In this document: positions 3,180-31,832 of the stretch, one piece after another
Layout of the letters: each line of letters opens with the position of its first letter
Numbering within the stretch: the first letter of the stretch is position 1
Virus record (IMG/VR): IMGVR_UViG_3300021963_000439
Location: 1 to 31,832 of that record
DNA from: a virus
Length of the DNA: 31,832 nucleotides
Strand: one strand, 5' to 3'
The notes under the pieces: generated by a model
Database searches by the model: none
What the model was told of the DNA's origin: nothing
The model's input: only the letters and a program-made list of their open reading frames with translations
Made by a program: the position numbers and the translations under genes

Positions 3180-5432
3180 ATGTATTACTTAAAACTTCTT
3201 GATAAATTCTCACTGCTTACAGTAGGAGATGACAAAATACCTAACTTCGGATGGAAGAAGTTACAAACTCAAAAGCTAACTAAAGAACAATTCTTAACTA
3301 ATTATCAATATTCAGGAGGTAAAACTTTTACTGATTCGGATGGTGTTATAACAGAAATAAAAGGAACTAAAAACGTTGGTATAATAACAGGTTTTGAAGA
3401 TTTAGAAGTTATTGATATTGATTTAAAAGTATTTTCAACAGCAAAAGAAAAAACAGACTTTTGGAATGAATATTTAGGTTATTTAAAAGATAACATTTTA
3501 GACTTTGAAGATAAGTTTGTTATTTACAAAACTATGAATGATGGTTATCATATTTTGTACAAATCAAAAAGAGTTGATAAAAACACAAAGATAGCCAAGT
3601 TGAAAGGCCATAATGAAGCCATTATAGAAACTCGAGGCAAATTTGGTTATGTTTTTATTTATGAAAATAATAAAGTATCTAAAAATGATTATTTAGGGAT
3701 AAGTTACATTTCTGATCAAGACAGGGAAATAGTTTGGAGCTTTTCAAAAATGTATAATTATATTGAAGAAATACCTATTGAGCCAAAAAAAGATAATAAG
3801 GTTTACAATATAGGTCAGTTAACTCCATGGGAAGATTATAATCAGAAAACATCAATTTTAGACCTTATAAGCGATAGTTTTACAATAGTAGGTAATCATT
3901 CAAAAAAATATGTTATTAAGCGTAATGGTGCTACTTCACCTCATTCAGGATATGTTTTTAAAGATAACGGATTTATGTATTTGCATTCAACAGGTTCTAT
4001 GTATGATGCAGAAAAAATATACACTCCTTTTTTAGTCTATTGTAAAAAATATCATGGTGATGATTTTAAGGCAGCAGCTTCAGATTTGTATAAACAAGGT
4101 TACGGATCACGTTTTGTTAAAGAAGTTGTGCCGATTGTTTCTGAAAAAATAAAATCTATTGAATTTCCTTTAGAGATATTTCCGGATGTAGTTGAAAAAT
4201 ATATTTTGCATTGTAAAGAACGTTTGATGTTAAACGAAGATTTTATGTCAGGCGCTTTGCTTTGGATGACTTCTATATTAATTGGTAACTCATTAAAAAT
4301 TGAAGCTAAAAAAGGATGGTTAGAAAGCCCAATTTTATTTATTGCTTTAGTTGGTCGAGCCGGATTAGGTAAAACTCCAAGCACAAAACCTATAATAGCT
4401 CCTGTAAAAAAGATTAATCAAAAGAAGATTGAAGATTATTTAAATAAATATAAAGAATATGAACGTTATATTGAAGCTACAAAAAAAGAACAGGCGGGAT
4501 TAGTGCCAATAGATAAACCACGAAAAAAACAAATACTTGCTGAAGATACTACTATTGAAGCATTAATAAACTTACATAATGAAAGCAATAAATCAATCGG
4601 AGTTTTTAAGGATGAACTCGATGGATGGTTTAAAGATATGAATAAATATAGAGATGGATCTGATAAACAAAAATGGCTATCTATTTGGAGCAATGAAAGT
4701 ATTATTGTTAATAGAGTATCACGACCTGATTTGTATATCGCTTCACCTTTTATTTCTGTTATGGGCGGTATTCAGCCAACTATATTAGATGAGCAGTTTA
4801 CTACTGAAAATATAGCGAATGGTTTTATTGATAGGTTTTTATTTTGTTATCCTGAAAAAATAACTTTTGAGCAGTTTTCATTAACTGATTTAGAAGAAAA
4901 TATCTCTGAATGGTGGAGCGATAGCATTATTAAAATAAGCGATAGCGTGGCGCAGTTTATAAAAAAAGATGAAAACGATAACATTATACCATTTATTTGT
5001 AAAATGTCAACAGATGGCTTTAAAACGTGGATTGCGATATTTAATACTTATTCTACATTACAAAATTCAGATGATGAAATAGAAAGTAATAAAAGCATGA
5101 TTGCAAAAATTAAAGTTTATATTCCCAGGTTTGCTTTGATTATACATTTTTTAGATTGTATGTTTTACTCTAAAGATATTCGAGAAACTTATGTAAGTAA
5201 AGAAACAATTTTAAAAGCTGATTTATTAGCTCAATATTTTATTAATCAATTTAAGAAAATAAAAATTGATAGTGCTGAAACATCAAAAATTAAATTAAAT
5301 ATTTCAACTGCTACTGATAATGAAAGTTTTGTTAAAAAATGTTATGATGAAAACCCGGATTTTAACCGTACAAAGATTGCTGAATTATTAGGTATTTCTC
5401 GTCAAACTATTTATAAATATTTAAAAAAGTAG
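3180..5432 (+). CDS. Primase-helicase (Prim-Pol domain plus DUF3987 ATPase, C-terminal HTH)
   Basis: The 750-aa protein appears to be the replication initiator. Residues about 1-200 resemble the bifunctional primase-polymerase fold: VIDID (77-81) supplies the paired metal-binding Asp residues, and DGYHIL holds the conserved His124. Residues about 230-310 match the linker seen in Bacteroidota primases (YTPF, then SDLYKQGYG). Residues about 330-600 are a DUF3987 ATPase with Walker A GRAGLGKT (392-399) and an acidic Walker B-like DELDGW (479-483). The last 26 residues form a helix-turn-helix (KIAELLGISRQTIYKYL). It should make primers and unwind DNA at the origin. The repeat array at 5442-5697 directly follows the gene, and the C-terminal HTH is a natural candidate to bind it. 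Its start is preceded by the structured leader at 3081-3170. Confidence 0.88.
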   Translation: MYYLKLLDKFSLLTVGDDKIPNFGWKKLQTQKLTKEQFLTNYQYSGGKTFTDSDGVITEIKGTKNVGIITGFEDLEVIDIDLKVFSTAKEKTDFWNEYLGYLKDNILDFEDKFVIYKTMNDGYHILYKSKRVDKNTKIAKLKGHNEAIIETRGKFGYVFIYENNKVSKNDYLGISYISDQDREIVWSFSKMYNYIEEIPIEPKKDNKVYNIGQLTPWEDYNQKTSILDLISDSFTIVGNHSKKYVIKRNGATSPHSGYVFKDNGFMYLHSTGSMYDAEKIYTPFLVYCKKYHGDDFKAAASDLYKQGYGSRFVKEVVPIVSEKIKSIEFPLEIFPDVVEKYILHCKERLMLNEDFMSGALLWMTSILIGNSLKIEAKKGWLESPILFIALVGRAGLGKTPSTKPIIAPVKKINQKKIEDYLNKYKEYERYIEATKKEQAGLVPIDKPRKKQILAEDTTIEALINLHNESNKSIGVFKDELDGWFKDMNKYRDGSDKQKWLSIWSNESIIVNRVSRPDLYIASPFISVMGGIQPTILDEQFTTENIANGFIDRFLFCYPEKITFEQFSLTDLEENISEWWSDSIIKISDSVAQFIKKDENDNIIPFICKMSTDGFKTWIAIFNTYSTLQNSDDEIESNKSMIAKIKVYIPRFALIIHFLDCMFYSKDIRETYVSKETILKADLLAQYFINQFKKIKIDSAETSKIKLNISTATDNESFVKKCYDENPDFNRTKIAELLGISRQTIYKYLKK

Positions 5433-5441
5433 GAATTTTAG

Positions 5442-5697
5442 TGTAAACTTTAGGTTTACAGTAGTTTACACTATGTTTACAGTTGTAAAGCATTGATTTT
5501 ATTGGTACTCACAAGGTTTTTATAGTGAGTGTAAACTGTAAACCCCTAAAAAACAAAAAAAATAAATTTATAAAAAATAAAAAAATAAATATTTTTATGC
5601 AGGTTTACAGTTTACAGTTTACACTTGCTTAAAAAGTCAATAAAATAAAGGGTTAAGACAATATTAATACTGTAAACTTAGTTTACACTGGTTTACA
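5442..5697 (+). repeat. Iteron-like array of 12 GTTTACA repeats; candidate replication origin
   Basis: This gene-free stretch between 5433 and 5712 holds 12 exact copies of GTTTACA or its complement. Forward copies start at 5454, 5464, 5475, 5603, 5610, 5617, 5681 and 5691; reverse copies start at 5442, 5530, 5537 and 5671. The next base makes six copies GTTTACAC and six GTTTACAG. Copies at 5530/5537 and at 5603/5610/5617 are head-to-tail with a 7-bp period. The clusters flank an A/T-only-like block at about 5548-5597, which would melt easily. A hairpin ACTCAC (5507-5512)/GTGAGT (5525-5530) lies inside. Repeats, an AT-rich block and an adjacent primase-helicase are the usual signs of an iteron origin. 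Operator sites for autoregulation are an alternative. Confidence 0.75.
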
Positions 5698-5712: not shown

Positions 5713-5934
5713 ATGATACAAATTGACAATCCATTTGAAAAAAAGCAAAAAAAAATAATTGAACAAAAAAATTGGAGCTTTAAATTTAAATTTTACATGA
5801 GTAAAAATAAAAGACCTTTTAGATTATCCGGTATTGAGTTAACAGACTCCGGATATTTAACAACGATTTTTTGGCTTGATAAAGAAAAATACGAAACATT
5901 CCCTTTTGAAAAAATAGAACCTTATTTATTATGA
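5713..5934 (+). CDS. Small hypothetical protein (73 aa)
   Basis: I do not recognise this protein. It is 73 aa, very rich in Lys and Phe, and its C-terminal half (LSGIELTDSGYLTTIFWLD and onward) looks like a small beta-rich domain. It has no membrane segment. It is the first gene after the repeat array, begins 15 nt after the last GTTTACA copy, and its stop overlaps the next start as ATGA, so it heads a four-gene operon with a DNA-binding-like protein and a cytosine methyltransferase. Its translation could be affected by any protein bound to the repeats. Confidence 0.65.
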   Translation: MIQIDNPFEKKQKKIIEQKNWSFKFKFYMSKNKRPFRLSGIELTDSGYLTTIFWLDKEKYETFPFEKIEPYLL

Positions 5935-6182
5935 TTTATACAGTTAGAAATATAGCAGAGTTTTGCGATGTAGATTTTGGATTTATAAGAAGAATAATTG
6001 ACTCCAATGAATTAAGACCTAAACTTATTTGCGGAAACGCAAATGAGAAAAAAGGATATAGCTTTTATCAGTTATTTATTATACAGTCTTTTTTAGAACA
6101 GCTATCTCAAAATAATTTACATTTTGATTTTGAGAATCAGGAAATTTATACAATTTACGAATCTAAACTTAACGAAATATGA
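5931..6182 (+). CDS. Small MerR/excisionase-like DNA-binding protein (83 aa)
   Basis: The N-terminal part reads YTVRNIAEFCDVDFGFIRRI then DSNELRPK, which follows the pattern of MerR-type or excisionase-like helix-turn-helix domains: a first helix that ends in a short turn, a recognition helix and a small wing. The rest is an amphipathic helix and an acidic tail. It overlaps its neighbours on both sides by ATGA junctions, so translation is coupled. Lying between the repeat array and a methyltransferase, it could regulate this operon or the origin. The assignment is by pattern only, and the missing typical residues of classic MerR proteins make a different small winged-helix fold possible. Confidence 0.5.
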   Translation: MIYTVRNIAEFCDVDFGFIRRIIDSNELRPKLICGNANEKKGYSFYQLFIIQSFLEQLSQNNLHFDFENQEIYTIYESKLNEI

Positions 6183-7138
6183 ATGTAGTATCACTATTTA
6201 ACGGAATGAATACCGGAAGACAAGCTCTTGAAAATGTTGGCATAAAAGTAAATAAATATTATTCAAGTGAAATTAAACCTTATGCAATAGAATTAACACA
6301 ACACCATTTTCCAGATACTATTCAAGTAGGAGACGTAACAAAATGGAGAGAGTGGAATATAGATTGGAGTACTATTGATTTAATATTAAGTGGAAGTCCT
6401 TGTCAAGATTTATCTGCCGCTGGTAAAAGAGCTGGTATTAATGGAAGTAGAAGTAGTTTATTTTTTGTTTTTGTAGAAATATTAGAACATATAAAATCAT
6501 TAAATCCTAAAGTATTATTTCTTCAAGAAAATGTAGGGAGTGCAGCTAAATTAGATGTTGGAATTATGAGTAGGGCTTTAGGAGTTTATCCAGTTAGAAT
6601 TAATAGTAGTTTAGTTACTGCTCAATTAAGAGATAGATACTATTGGAGCAACATAAGAACTAAACAAGATGGAATGTTTGGTGATATTATAACTGATATT
6701 CCACAACCAAAAGACAAAGGAATAATGTTTAAAGATATTATTACAAGTGGATATGTAGAAAAAATAAAAACTGGTTGTTTAATGGAAAGCATTAGCAGAG
6801 TTCAACATACTCAAAATGGAATTAAAAGTAGAGAAAAATTTGGGGTGCCTCAAATTTATGTAGATACTGACAAACATACTTGTTTAAACACCGGTAGTGG
6901 CGCAACTGAAAAAGCAAAACAAGAATATTTATTACATAGAAACGAAACAACAGGAATGATTACTTTGATTAAAGAAAATGAAAAAGTAAGAACAGTAAAT
7001 AAAATTGAAATGTGCAGACTTCAAGGTTTTCCCGATAATTATTGCGATATACTTTCAACTCCAAAAGCAGGAAGTTTACTTGGTGATGGATGGACTTTAC
7101 CAATAATAGAACATATATTTAAATTTATAAAACCATAA
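6179..7138 (+). CDS. DNA (cytosine-5-)-methyltransferase
   Basis: This 319-aa protein has the full C5-methylase motif order. Motif I is SLFNGMNTGRQAL (5-17), which binds SAM. Motif IV GSPCQDLS holds the catalytic Cys75. Motif VI is ENV (117-119), motif VIII QLRDR (149-153), motif IX RLQGFPDNYCD (near 274-284), and motif X ends the protein near GDGWTLPIIEHIF. The length is at the short end for the family, with a compact target-recognition region at about 165-265. The motif I variant resembles the DNMT3-like branch seen in phages. No cognate restriction enzyme gene lies nearby, so it is most likely an orphan methylase that protects phage DNA. The target sequence cannot be inferred. It is coupled to the gene before it by ATGA. 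Confidence 0.93.
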   Translation: MNVVSLFNGMNTGRQALENVGIKVNKYYSSEIKPYAIELTQHHFPDTIQVGDVTKWREWNIDWSTIDLILSGSPCQDLSAAGKRAGINGSRSSLFFVFVEILEHIKSLNPKVLFLQENVGSAAKLDVGIMSRALGVYPVRINSSLVTAQLRDRYYWSNIRTKQDGMFGDIITDIPQPKDKGIMFKDIITSGYVEKIKTGCLMESISRVQHTQNGIKSREKFGVPQIYVDTDKHTCLNTGSGATEKAKQEYLLHRNETTGMITLIKENEKVRTVNKIEMCRLQGFPDNYCDILSTPKAGSLLGDGWTLPIIEHIFKFIKP

Positions 7139-8351: not shown

Positions 8352-9377
8352 TTACACAATTTTATAATTAATAATTCTAATATTTTTTAATTCGTAATTA
8401 CCATCGCTTCCAATTTTAGCATGAGCAAAACCATGATTATAATTGTTATAAGGCGAATATTCAGGCTCTAAACCGCAAAGGCATCCTGTTGACCAAGTTG
8501 TTGTAACTTCACCGCTTAAACTCTTTTCAGTATGTTCCGATGTTCTATGGTGATGACCAACTAAACAGCTCTCTTTTGCTTTCATAAATAAACCCCTCGC
8601 AGGATTAACAGGCGGAGCAAATCCACCAAACCATTCATGGCCATGAAGTATTGGAAGCTTTCCGGCTAAAGCCATTTGTTTATCTTTAACCAACGTAACT
8701 CCAAACTCTCTAAATCGTAAAAGTTGTTCAAGTTTAAAATCATCAATCCCTAATAACTCCGGAGCTTTAATCATCAAATAATCTTCATACCTTTTTTCGT
8801 GATTTCCTATTTTATAATAAATAGGGCATTTAAATAAGTCTTGCATCATTTTTAGAAACTCCCTAACCATTTCTAACTCTCCCGCCATATCTCTTAATCG
8901 TCTGTCTTTTGTAAATCTACTGCATTGGTAGAAGTCTGCTATATCACCATTTAAGTATATGGTATTGACTTTGTTTTCAAGTCCGTAATTAATCGCCAAT
9001 TCAAGTGCCTTATTGTCCTGGTAAGGGAAATGAATATCGCTTAAGATTAAAATATTGTTTTGTCCTTTTGGAATTATAAAGGCTTCACACTTTTCGTAAT
9101 CGCTTTCGGGTAAATCAATAATTTTGCTCATAGATTGTTTTTTTTGAGTTTCAGTACGTTCACCGGTTCTTGAAATAGGTGAACTATTTTTACCATTTTC
9201 GCCTCTATATCTTCTTACGTTGGTTCTTACAGTATCTAATGAACTAAAGTCTAATTTATGCTCATCATAAATCAATCTCGCAATAGCCATCGTTGTTGCA
9301 TTTGGGAACTTATTTATAAAAGTCAATACAATGTCTTTTTTGTAAGTGGCTGCGTTTTGATTCCCTTTTATACCCAT
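8352..9377 (-). CDS. Metallophosphoesterase (calcineurin-like) with N-terminal winged-helix-like region
   Basis: The 341-aa protein carries all metal motifs of the calcineurin-like family in order: DIH (114-116), GDIADF (144-149), GNHE (191-194), HGHEW (245-249) and GHHH (274-277). It should hydrolyse phosphodiester or phosphomonoester bonds with two metal ions. Residues about 10-60 (ending TVRTNVRRYRGENGK) look like a small winged-helix or homeodomain-like DNA-binding region, followed by a Ser/Lys-rich linker to about 85. Similar proteins occur in Bacteroidota phages. The substrate is unknown; nucleic acid is suggested by the N-terminal region. It follows the endolysin by five bases, so it is co-expressed with lysis genes although it is not a typical lysis protein. 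Confidence 0.9.
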   Translation of the reverse strand: MGIKGNQNAATYKKDIVLTFINKFPNATTMAIARLIYDEHKLDFSSLDTVRTNVRRYRGENGKNSSPISRTGERTETQKKQSMSKIIDLPESDYEKCEAFIIPKGQNNILILSDIHFPYQDNKALELAINYGLENKVNTIYLNGDIADFYQCSRFTKDRRLRDMAGELEMVREFLKMMQDLFKCPIYYKIGNHEKRYEDYLMIKAPELLGIDDFKLEQLLRFREFGVTLVKDKQMALAGKLPILHGHEWFGGFAPPVNPARGLFMKAKESCLVGHHHRTSEHTEKSLSGEVTTTWSTGCLCGLEPEYSPYNNYNHGFAHAKIGSDGNYELKNIRIINYKIV

Positions 9378-9382
9378 AAGAT

Positions 9383-9841
9383 TTAATCTTTAACCTCGAA
9401 GTGCATCCAATCAAAATTCTTTTCTCGGCCTAAACTTACAAAGCCATGCTTATAAAATATATCAATCATTGGCTTATATTCTATACGTGCAAATCGTGCT
9501 GTTTTAGATGTTTCTCTTAATAAATTACGACTTGGGTTTAAGTCAATAGCACAACCCCAACTATGCACACTTAATTGAGTGCCACCACGCATTAAACGAT
9601 AATTAAAGCAACCGCCATAATCATCAATTTTCAAATCGCAAATTGCATCCTGGCCATAAAACTCTAATATATCATTGAATATTGCCAAAAGTTTATCCGC
9701 AACTAATTTATGACAACTTATCTTTGTTACTTTTTTACCATCATAATACATTGGATAAGGCAAAGTAATTTGAGTAATATATCCTTTACCCTCTTTATTT
9801 GGAGTTCCATATTTAGCAATAAGTTGAGCTTGTGTTATCAT
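9383..9841 (-). CDS. M15-family peptidase, endolysin
   Basis: This 152-aa protein has the zinc site of M15 peptidases: [16 protein letters not shown] gives His93 and Asp100, and DWMHFE gives His147. The family cleaves peptide crosslinks in peptidoglycan as D-Ala-D-Ala carboxypeptidases or L-Ala-D-Glu endopeptidases. No signal peptide is present, so it would stay in the cytoplasm until a holin opens the inner membrane. It lies directly after two small membrane proteins, and its ATG overlaps the previous stop (ATGA). The single catalytic domain with no cell-wall-binding domain is typical for phages of Gram-negative hosts. Confidence 0.92.
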
Positions 9842-30728: not shown

Positions 30729-31344
30729 TTTACCAAAAATTAATGATTTATATTCCGATAAACTTTCTATTCAGAAAGCGGATGTATTTGTAACTTTAAT
30801 GAATCAGCAACCTAAACAAGAATGGGTAAAAGACCATCCTTTTATAAGAGGTTATAAATACTTACCTATTGAAAGGATTGAATATTTATTAAAAACTATA
30901 TTCAAGTCTTATAAGATTGAAATTACAGGCCAAGGCACATCATTTAACGGTGTTTGGGTAACTGTTAGAATACATTATTTGCATCCGGTAAATGGCGAAT
31001 GGTTGTTTCATGATGGCATTGGTGCTTCGCAGTTACAAACTGCCAAAGGAACATCCCCTGCGGATTTAAACAATATCAATAATGGTGCTTTATCAATGGC
31101 CTATCCTGTTGCAAAAACAATAGCTATAAAAGATGCTGCGGATCACTTTGGTAAGTTATTTGGATCTGATTTAAACCGTGAGGATTTAATTAACTACGAA
31201 TTAGATTTGACATTGATTGAATTAACACCGGATCATCCTAATTGGAATAAGGTAAAAGAAGCTGTAAAAAGCGGTAACTATACGATTGAACAAATACGAA
31301 CTAAATACAATTTATCAGATGAAAACGCAAAACAACTTATTTAA
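30721..31344 (+). CDS. Putative single-strand annealing recombinase (Rad52/ERF-like)
   Basis: This 207-aa protein has features of Rad52/22- and ERF-type annealing proteins: an early helix and YKYLPIERIEYLLKTIF, a beta stretch (WVTVRIHYLHP), the DGIGA segment, then AYPVAKTIAIKDAADHFGKL and FGSDLNR, where a Lys-x-Asp-Ala-Ala helix and a Gly-Lys-Leu-Phe turn match the conserved pattern of these families. The C-terminal part (YTIEQIRTKYNLSDE) may be a small helical domain. It would pair complementary strands during phage recombination. The exonuclease gene overlaps its end by 26 bases, giving a classic exonuclease-annealase pair. Confidence 0.72.
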   Translation: MSNLPKINDLYSDKLSIQKADVFVTLMNQQPKQEWVKDHPFIRGYKYLPIERIEYLLKTIFKSYKIEITGQGTSFNGVWVTVRIHYLHPVNGEWLFHDGIGASQLQTAKGTSPADLNNINNGALSMAYPVAKTIAIKDAADHFGKLFGSDLNREDLINYELDLTLIELTPDHPNWNKVKEAVKSGNYTIEQIRTKYNLSDENAKQLI

Positions 31345-31832
31345 AGCACGAGCTTCCGCTTCAGGAAAGCTAATGACTGCTCCAAGAGCAAAGACTGAAA
31401 CATTATCAGAAACAACAAAGACTTATGTTTATGAGTGGTTAAAAGAAAGCATTTACGGAATTCGTAAAAATATCAATAACAAATATTTATCTAAAGGATT
31501 ATGGCTTGAAGATGAAGCTATCGATAAGACTATTGAATTATTAGATTTGTCCTTTGCTATTAAGAATGAGAAATTTTTTGAAGATGATTATTTTACAGGA
31601 ACTCCGGATTTAATTGTTGATGGTGTTGTTTACGACACAAAATGCAGTTGGGATTGTTTTACGTTCCCATTATTTGATAATGATATACCAACTAAAGATT
31701 ATTACTATCAATTACAGGTTTATATGCACCTTACAGGATGTAAAAAAGCATGTTTAGTTTATGTATTGTTGAACACTCCTGAAGAATTAACTTATGAAGA
31801 AAAACATAACTACGATGATATGGATGCGAAGT
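31319..31832 (+). CDS. RecB/YqaJ-type exonuclease, 3' truncated by the window
   Basis: Read from the ATG at 31319, 171 residues are present. LEDEAID gives the first acidic residue, FTGTPDLIVDG gives the GxPD motif, YDTKCSW gives the D-x-K motif, and YYYQLQVYMHLTG gives the Gln-Tyr helix of RecB-like PD-(D/E)XK nucleases. Such exonucleases resect DNA ends and hand the strand to the annealase encoded just upstream. The length so far is most of the usual size of about 200-250 residues. The frame overlaps the annealase stop by 26 bases. On a circular genome the SSB-like gene at position 1 would be a near neighbour. Confidence 0.85.
   Translation, partial: MKTQNNLFKARASASGKLMTAPRAKTETLSETTKTYVYEWLKESIYGIRKNINNKYLSKGLWLEDEAIDKTIELLDLSFAIKNEKFFEDDYFTGTPDLIVDGVVYDTKCSWDCFTFPLFDNDIPTKDYYYQLQVYMHLTGCKKACLVYVLLNTPEELTYEEKHNYDDMDAK

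Follow-up and report, generated by a model that had tools for sequence, protein, structure and literature searches.

The window analysed here, a stretch of 31,832 nucleotides, is the whole of virus record IMGVR_UViG_3300021963_000439, and it encodes the portal, capsid, prohead protease, terminase and tail tube of a tailed phage. An exonuclease ORF runs in frame across the ends of the record (31286–31832 joined to 1–99) with no end repeat; since this reading frame continues across the ends, the genome is probably complete and either circular or circularly permuted. Another ORF (175–2358) codes for a SNF2/ResIII-type helicase fused with an N6/N4 DNA methylase. The features of main concern are a gene at positions 3180–5432 on the plus strand, encoding a predicted replication initiator of 750 amino acids, and a dense cluster of short repeats after its stop codon, at 5442–5697.

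Domain structure of the putative initiator

The AF2 model of the protein (pLDDT 84) displayed the following features: (i) residues 1–195 form a PrimPol domain, which superposed on that of pRN1 ORF904 (Z 14.5, rmsd 3.0 over 160 residues; Foldseek E 8e-6) and whose Pfam Prim-Pol score was below the cut-off; (ii) residues 332–699, approximately the DUF3987 region (Pfam match to residues 354–694, E 7e-50), form an AAA+ helicase domain that superposed on MCM helicases (Z 15.3, rmsd 3.7 over 261 residues); and (iii) residues 714–749 form a C-terminal helix-turn-helix (HTH) with helices at 714–724, 730–737 and 741–749, for which both HTH_7 and HTH_8 scored above the Pfam cut-off. A PDB sequence search with a profile of the whole protein gave no relevant match, and the HTH alone returned only weak Fis/NtrC-like matches. 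The protein thus combines an AEP PrimPol with a DUF3987 ATPase, the two domains by which AEP primase-helicase initiators of the DUF3987 type are defined.

Architecture of the repeat cluster

Twelve exact copies of GTTTACA lie within these 256 bp, eight on the plus strand (5454, 5464, 5475, 5603, 5610, 5617, 5681 and 5691) and four on the minus strand (5442, 5530, 5537 and 5671), in full agreement with an initial annotation made from the sequence. Only ~0.06 copies would be expected in a region of this size (cluster log10 P −21.8). The whole window holds 20 copies against 7.2 expected, a total of at least 20 being reached in 0 of 100 shuffles, and this is the sole GTTTACA cluster of the genome. 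Every one of the 12 copies is followed by S and then T (GTTTACAST), and the even split into two variants noted earlier was recovered as six copies of GTTTACAC and six of GTTTACAG. The suggestion that GTTTACAC and the G-type copies represent two affinity classes was rejected, because three G-type copies, half of that class, owe their G merely to the first base of the next head-to-tail copy.

The copies are arranged six and six around a central AT block (5544–5602), a putative duplex-unwinding element that consists of A and T only between 5555 and 5598 and corresponds to the low-complexity block of the initial annotation. To its left are an outer array of four copies (5442–5481, spacing 12, 10 and 11 bp) and two inner head-to-tail copies on the minus strand (5530–5543); to its right are three inner head-to-tail copies on the plus strand (5603–5623) and three outer copies (5671–5697, spacing 10 and 10 bp). 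The 7-bp period that had been ascribed to the tandem copies is limited to the inner arrays (5530/5537 and 5603/5610/5617), while copies in the outer arrays are 10–12 bp apart, or about one helical turn. The spacing had also been considered unusual for iterons; the commonest spacing among 57 distinct relatives is 10–11 bp, which makes the array more ordinary than was supposed.

Each spacer between outer and inner arrays contains a further element. The left spacer carries an IHF-consensus site, AATCAATGCTTTA (5486–5498, minus strand), of a class enriched over the 57 origins, and the right spacer carries TCAATAAAATAAAGGGTTAAG (5637–5657, plus strand), which bears a weak resemblance to the TCAATGTTTATAAGGCTTAAC element of other origins. 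The longer inverted repeats found were the iterons themselves; none of the inverted repeats of the window was a single large stem-loop comparable to that of pRN1 (~100 nt), and the window gave no Rfam match, leaving a structured RNA unsupported. GC skew, which had been proposed as a check, was discarded as evidence for an origin, as it switches where the coding strand changes (~7.2 kb and 28.5 kb) and not at 5.5 kb. A C5-cytosine methylase gene (6179–7138) lies near the cluster; no more than 9 of the 154 related loci have a homologue, and it was ruled out as a conserved partner.

Conservation of the cluster in relatives

Scans of viral contigs yielded 155 distinct proteins with a complete C-terminus, the window's included. 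A significant cluster of short repeats was found beside the gene in 145 of these 155, and the remaining 10 are all encoded on contigs with 0–360 bp of DNA upstream of the gene. The initial annotation had held that loss of the repeats from close relatives with the same gene would speak against an origin; the repeats are instead a regular companion of the gene. The cluster is located either directly after the stop codon or ~240–1285 bp before the start codon, the upstream position being that of about half of the relatives. The repeat unit itself varies, with TGTTACA, TTTAAAC, TGTGAAA, TGTAAAG and TGCGAAC among the forms observed. A converse search for the triple array retrieved 12 viral contigs, of which 10 have a cluster of at least 12 copies and two have only three copies. 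The primase gene was detected by tblastn in nine of these 10 cluster contigs, the tenth being truncated, or its partial gene being already among the nine. Among the closest relatives, iteron letters were invariant only modestly more often than the other intergenic positions (90% vs 79% of columns, P 0.025). The named genomes with relatives are Psychroflexus and other Bacteroidota MAGs. One related locus (L035) has a second dense short repeat, AAGAGAA, in 9–12 copies at ~9189–9400, which is unrelated to the origin.

The layout was likewise shared. The 57 distinct relatives have a median of 13 copies in 257 bp, with the centre of the AT block at a median of 0.51 of the span and medians of six and six copies per side. 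A strict six-per-side rule was rejected on account of the range (2 to 12), as was a strict '<|>' orientation around the AT block, which was seen in just 30 of 57. The left and right spacers differ in length by no more than 2 bp in 24 of 48 origins, against 8.8 by chance; their being exact inverted copies of each other was barely above controls. Matches to the IHF consensus WATCAANNNNTTR number 28 over the 57 origins against 1.5 expected (18-fold), mostly in the spacers, and an element like TCAATGTTTATAAGGCTTAAC occurs in 27 origins against 11.4 expected; spacers often hold one such iteron-independent element each. Judged by the E. coli consensus, host IHF may bind at spacer sites such as 5486–5498. 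Clustered direct repeats and an AT-rich block adjoining an initiator gene, the features of an iteron-type origin, are therefore present in the window.

A residue-to-base code in the recognition helix

To relate the protein to the repeats, an alignment of the repeat profiles was built with no input from the proteins, after which all 750 protein columns were scored against the repeat bases with an adjustment for the entropy of each column (144 proteins, effective number 56). The three highest-scoring of the 750 columns were 746, 741 and 742 (z 8.5, 8.1 and 6.4), all of which lie in the recognition helix (741–749 in the model). In the window they are K746 (5415–5417), R741 (5400–5402) and Q742 (5403–5405), encoded on the plus strand within the codons of HTH helices 2–3 (residues 730–750; 5367–5429). 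Numbered on TGTAAAC, base 2 covaried with residue 741 (z 15.9), base 4 with residue 742 (z 6.4) and bases 6/7 with residue 746 (z 9.8/12.3), so that the order of the residues matches that of the bases. R741 occurs with G2 and L/V741 with T2; R742 occurs with G4 and Q742 with A4; and K746 occurs with AC and R746 with CA. Arginine is hence paired with guanine at both R741/G2 and R742/G4. Residue 741 probably reads base 2, residue 742 base 4 and residue 746 bases 6–7.

The association was also evident in 69 disjoint nearest pairs: the repeat core was kept in 38 of 38 pairs with identical residues at 741, 742 and 746, and was changed in 28 of 31 pairs in which these residues differ (P 2.5e-12). 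A code trained on the 144 loci was then applied to a hold-out set of 38 loci from three further scans. Scored at positions with a clear observed base, it predicted 120 of 127 bases correctly (94%). Guessing the majority base gave 81, copying the nearest relative by protein body gave 80, and 5000 shuffles of the HTHs gave a mean of 79.5 (maximum 96). Four of the 38 loci gave no bases because their repeats were palindromic or not placeable in register. In the hold-out material, the repeats of three loci with full flanks did not reach the cut-off for a cluster, and a further six loci were not placeable in register. An extra locus found by DNA pattern alone, L451, has the helix SRTMVHKYL and the repeat GTTTACA, as predicted by the code.

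Since the spelling of the repeat shifts in step with three residues across about 200 related phages, the tail of the protein predicts the DNA word of the probable start site. The initial annotation had proposed that the C-terminus of the enzyme binds the array, and the covariation of its recognition helix with the repeat bases argues for this. Specificity of the initiator for its iterons, a hallmark of iteron origins, is likewise indicated by the covariation and the hold-out prediction. What these data point to is specific recognition whatever its purpose, since covariation would also arise if the protein served autoregulation or partition.

Alternative explanations

Autoregulation is common among HTH proteins, and the upstream arrays of about half of the relatives would suit an operator through which this protein, or some other regulator, controls transcription with no part in replication. 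We regard this as improbable: in the window and in every downstream-type relative the array comes after the stop codon and differing genes lie beyond it, the 10–16 sites with their central AT block, equal spacers and IHF-like sites have the anatomy of an origin, and the DNA-reading domain is part of a fusion with a PrimPol and a helicase. The same fusion, which contains no recombinase domain, makes it very improbable that the site serves partition (parS-like), recombination or packaging, even though parS and recombination sites also have repeat arrays and HTH_7 is named for resolvases; a terminase or ParB gene adjoining the array was not found. The least probable reading is that another protein binds the repeats, for example the product of the HTH-like ORF 5931–6182 or of ORF 5713–5934, both of which adjoin the array in the window. 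Of 154 loci, only 12 have a homologue of the former and 11 one of the latter; the former is found in 7 of 59 downstream-type loci, in all 59 of which the primase is present. The repeats and the primase occur in all groups, and the base-specific covariation falls on the primase HTH; the two ORFs are thus largely refuted as binders.

Covariation could also reflect mere linkage, the HTH and the array moving as one recombining block. At downstream-type loci the array adjoins the HTH codons, and swaps between genes with 99% identical bodies were seen. At upstream-type loci, however, the array is ~2.5 kb from the HTH codons with near-identical DNA between them (L071/L068; also L055/L069). Between L071 and L068, both the upstream repeats and the HTH codons at the far end differ around ~1.2 kb of identical intervening gene DNA, which argues that HTH and repeats are not a single cassette. 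Linkage, moreover, predicts neither the residue-by-base order nor the accuracy achieved on held-out loci, and we consider it highly unlikely as the explanation. A comparison of the window with L007 showed copies altered in place inside a recognisable scaffold.

Proposed mechanism of initiation

Taken together, we interpret 5442–5697 as the origin at which a tailed phage of Bacteroidota type starts its replication, and the product of the adjoining gene as a self-loading initiator whose C-terminal HTH reads the iterons, with a probability of roughly 0.9. The candidate origin that the initial annotation placed next to a primase-helicase gene thereby gains much stronger support than expected from the clusters of the relatives and from the covariation of the HTH. 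In the mechanism that we propose, the HTH of the PrimPol/MCM-like helicase would bind each 7–9 bp iteron, and two helicase rings would assemble, one to the left and one to the right of the AT block. Bends at the IHF-like spacer sites may bring each outer array back against its inner array. Once the AT block had melted, both rings would load and move apart as they unwind the DNA, giving bidirectional replication, and the first primers for the host polymerase would be synthesized by the PrimPol domain. The presence of about six sites per side, exactly six and six in the window, suggests one ring per side, though two hexamers are only suggestive because the copies per side vary from 2 to 12.

Comparison with known systems

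The closest working systems are SaPI Rep and P4 alpha, by likeness of organization and not by family membership. As described in PMC7581432, the SaPI Rep origin has short iterons directly downstream of the gene (Ubeda 2007), SaPI5 Rep combines a primase with a helicase domain, and the C-terminal domain of SCCmec Cch2 was shown to bind its iterons, with two hexamers being proposed. Compared by these descriptions, SaPI Rep and Cch2 share with the window an initiator helicase of MCM-like type, an origin-binding domain at the C-terminus and iterons next to the gene, whereas their hosts and sequence families differ. Unlike SaPI, the family of the window also has upstream arrays, with ~10–16 copies around a central AT block and IHF-like sites in the spacers, and its reader is a three-helix Fis/resolvase-like HTH. 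The alpha protein of phage P4 is likewise a fused primase, helicase and origin-binding protein that reads iterons (cf. PMC4234260), but its primase is of the TOPRIM type and that of the window has the AEP PrimPol fold.

In pRN1 ORF904, the closest PrimPol by fold, a helicase and a C-terminal DNA-binding domain are also joined to an AEP PrimPol in one chain, and the origin adjoins the initiator gene (PMC4234260). The pRN1 helicase is described as SF3, however, in contrast to the MCM-like fold of the window protein, and the pRN1 origin is a 100-nt stem-loop without iterons (PMC4234260). In Kazlauskas 2018 (PMC5862659), a helicase function was predicted for DUF3987 and origin recognition for the C-terminal WH. 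PrimQH and other PrimPol-PV1 AEPs with DUF3987 have the same domain order as the window protein, a likeness of order; that work was a prediction without origin or iterons, to which the present analysis adds the site and the base code. In PLE RepA, the DNA-binding domain covaries with the origin iterons, origin swaps proved cognate specificity, and an origin-directed nuclease provides a selective reason for changing it (PMC8263062). RepA differs in being a RepA_N initiator without primase or helicase, with iterons of ~30 bp and few alleles (PMC8263062). The window therefore represents a kind of system already known, an iteron origin, with an unusually readable specificity code; new, so far as the surveyed literature shows, are the origin, its iterons and layout, and the family-wide predictive recognition code.

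Probable turnover of origin specificity, and significance

In four pairs of loci (L211/L300, L219/L203, L071/L068 and L269/L252), the primase bodies have 99% protein identity and both the HTH and the iterons are switched, which suggests a rapid turnover of origin specificity. We lean towards the view that this is a fast-evolving initiator family whose short HTH tail is an exchangeable reader of addresses that follows a simple residue-to-base code. Specificity would switch through some three residues together with all 10–16 iterons, even at such body identity, and the selective pressure would probably come from co-infecting relatives, from satellites or from nucleases directed at the origin.

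With this interpretation, a large and mostly uncultured group of phages gains an origin and an initiator, and the DUF3987 proteins, of unknown function in Pfam, gain a biological role. From three residues of the recognition helix, four iteron bases are predicted at 94% accuracy on loci kept out of training, and the roughly 200 natural initiator-iteron pairs amount to nature's own selection experiment. How an initiator and a dozen iterons can change specificity jointly without an inviable intermediate becomes a question approachable through pairs such as the window and L007, or L071 and L068.
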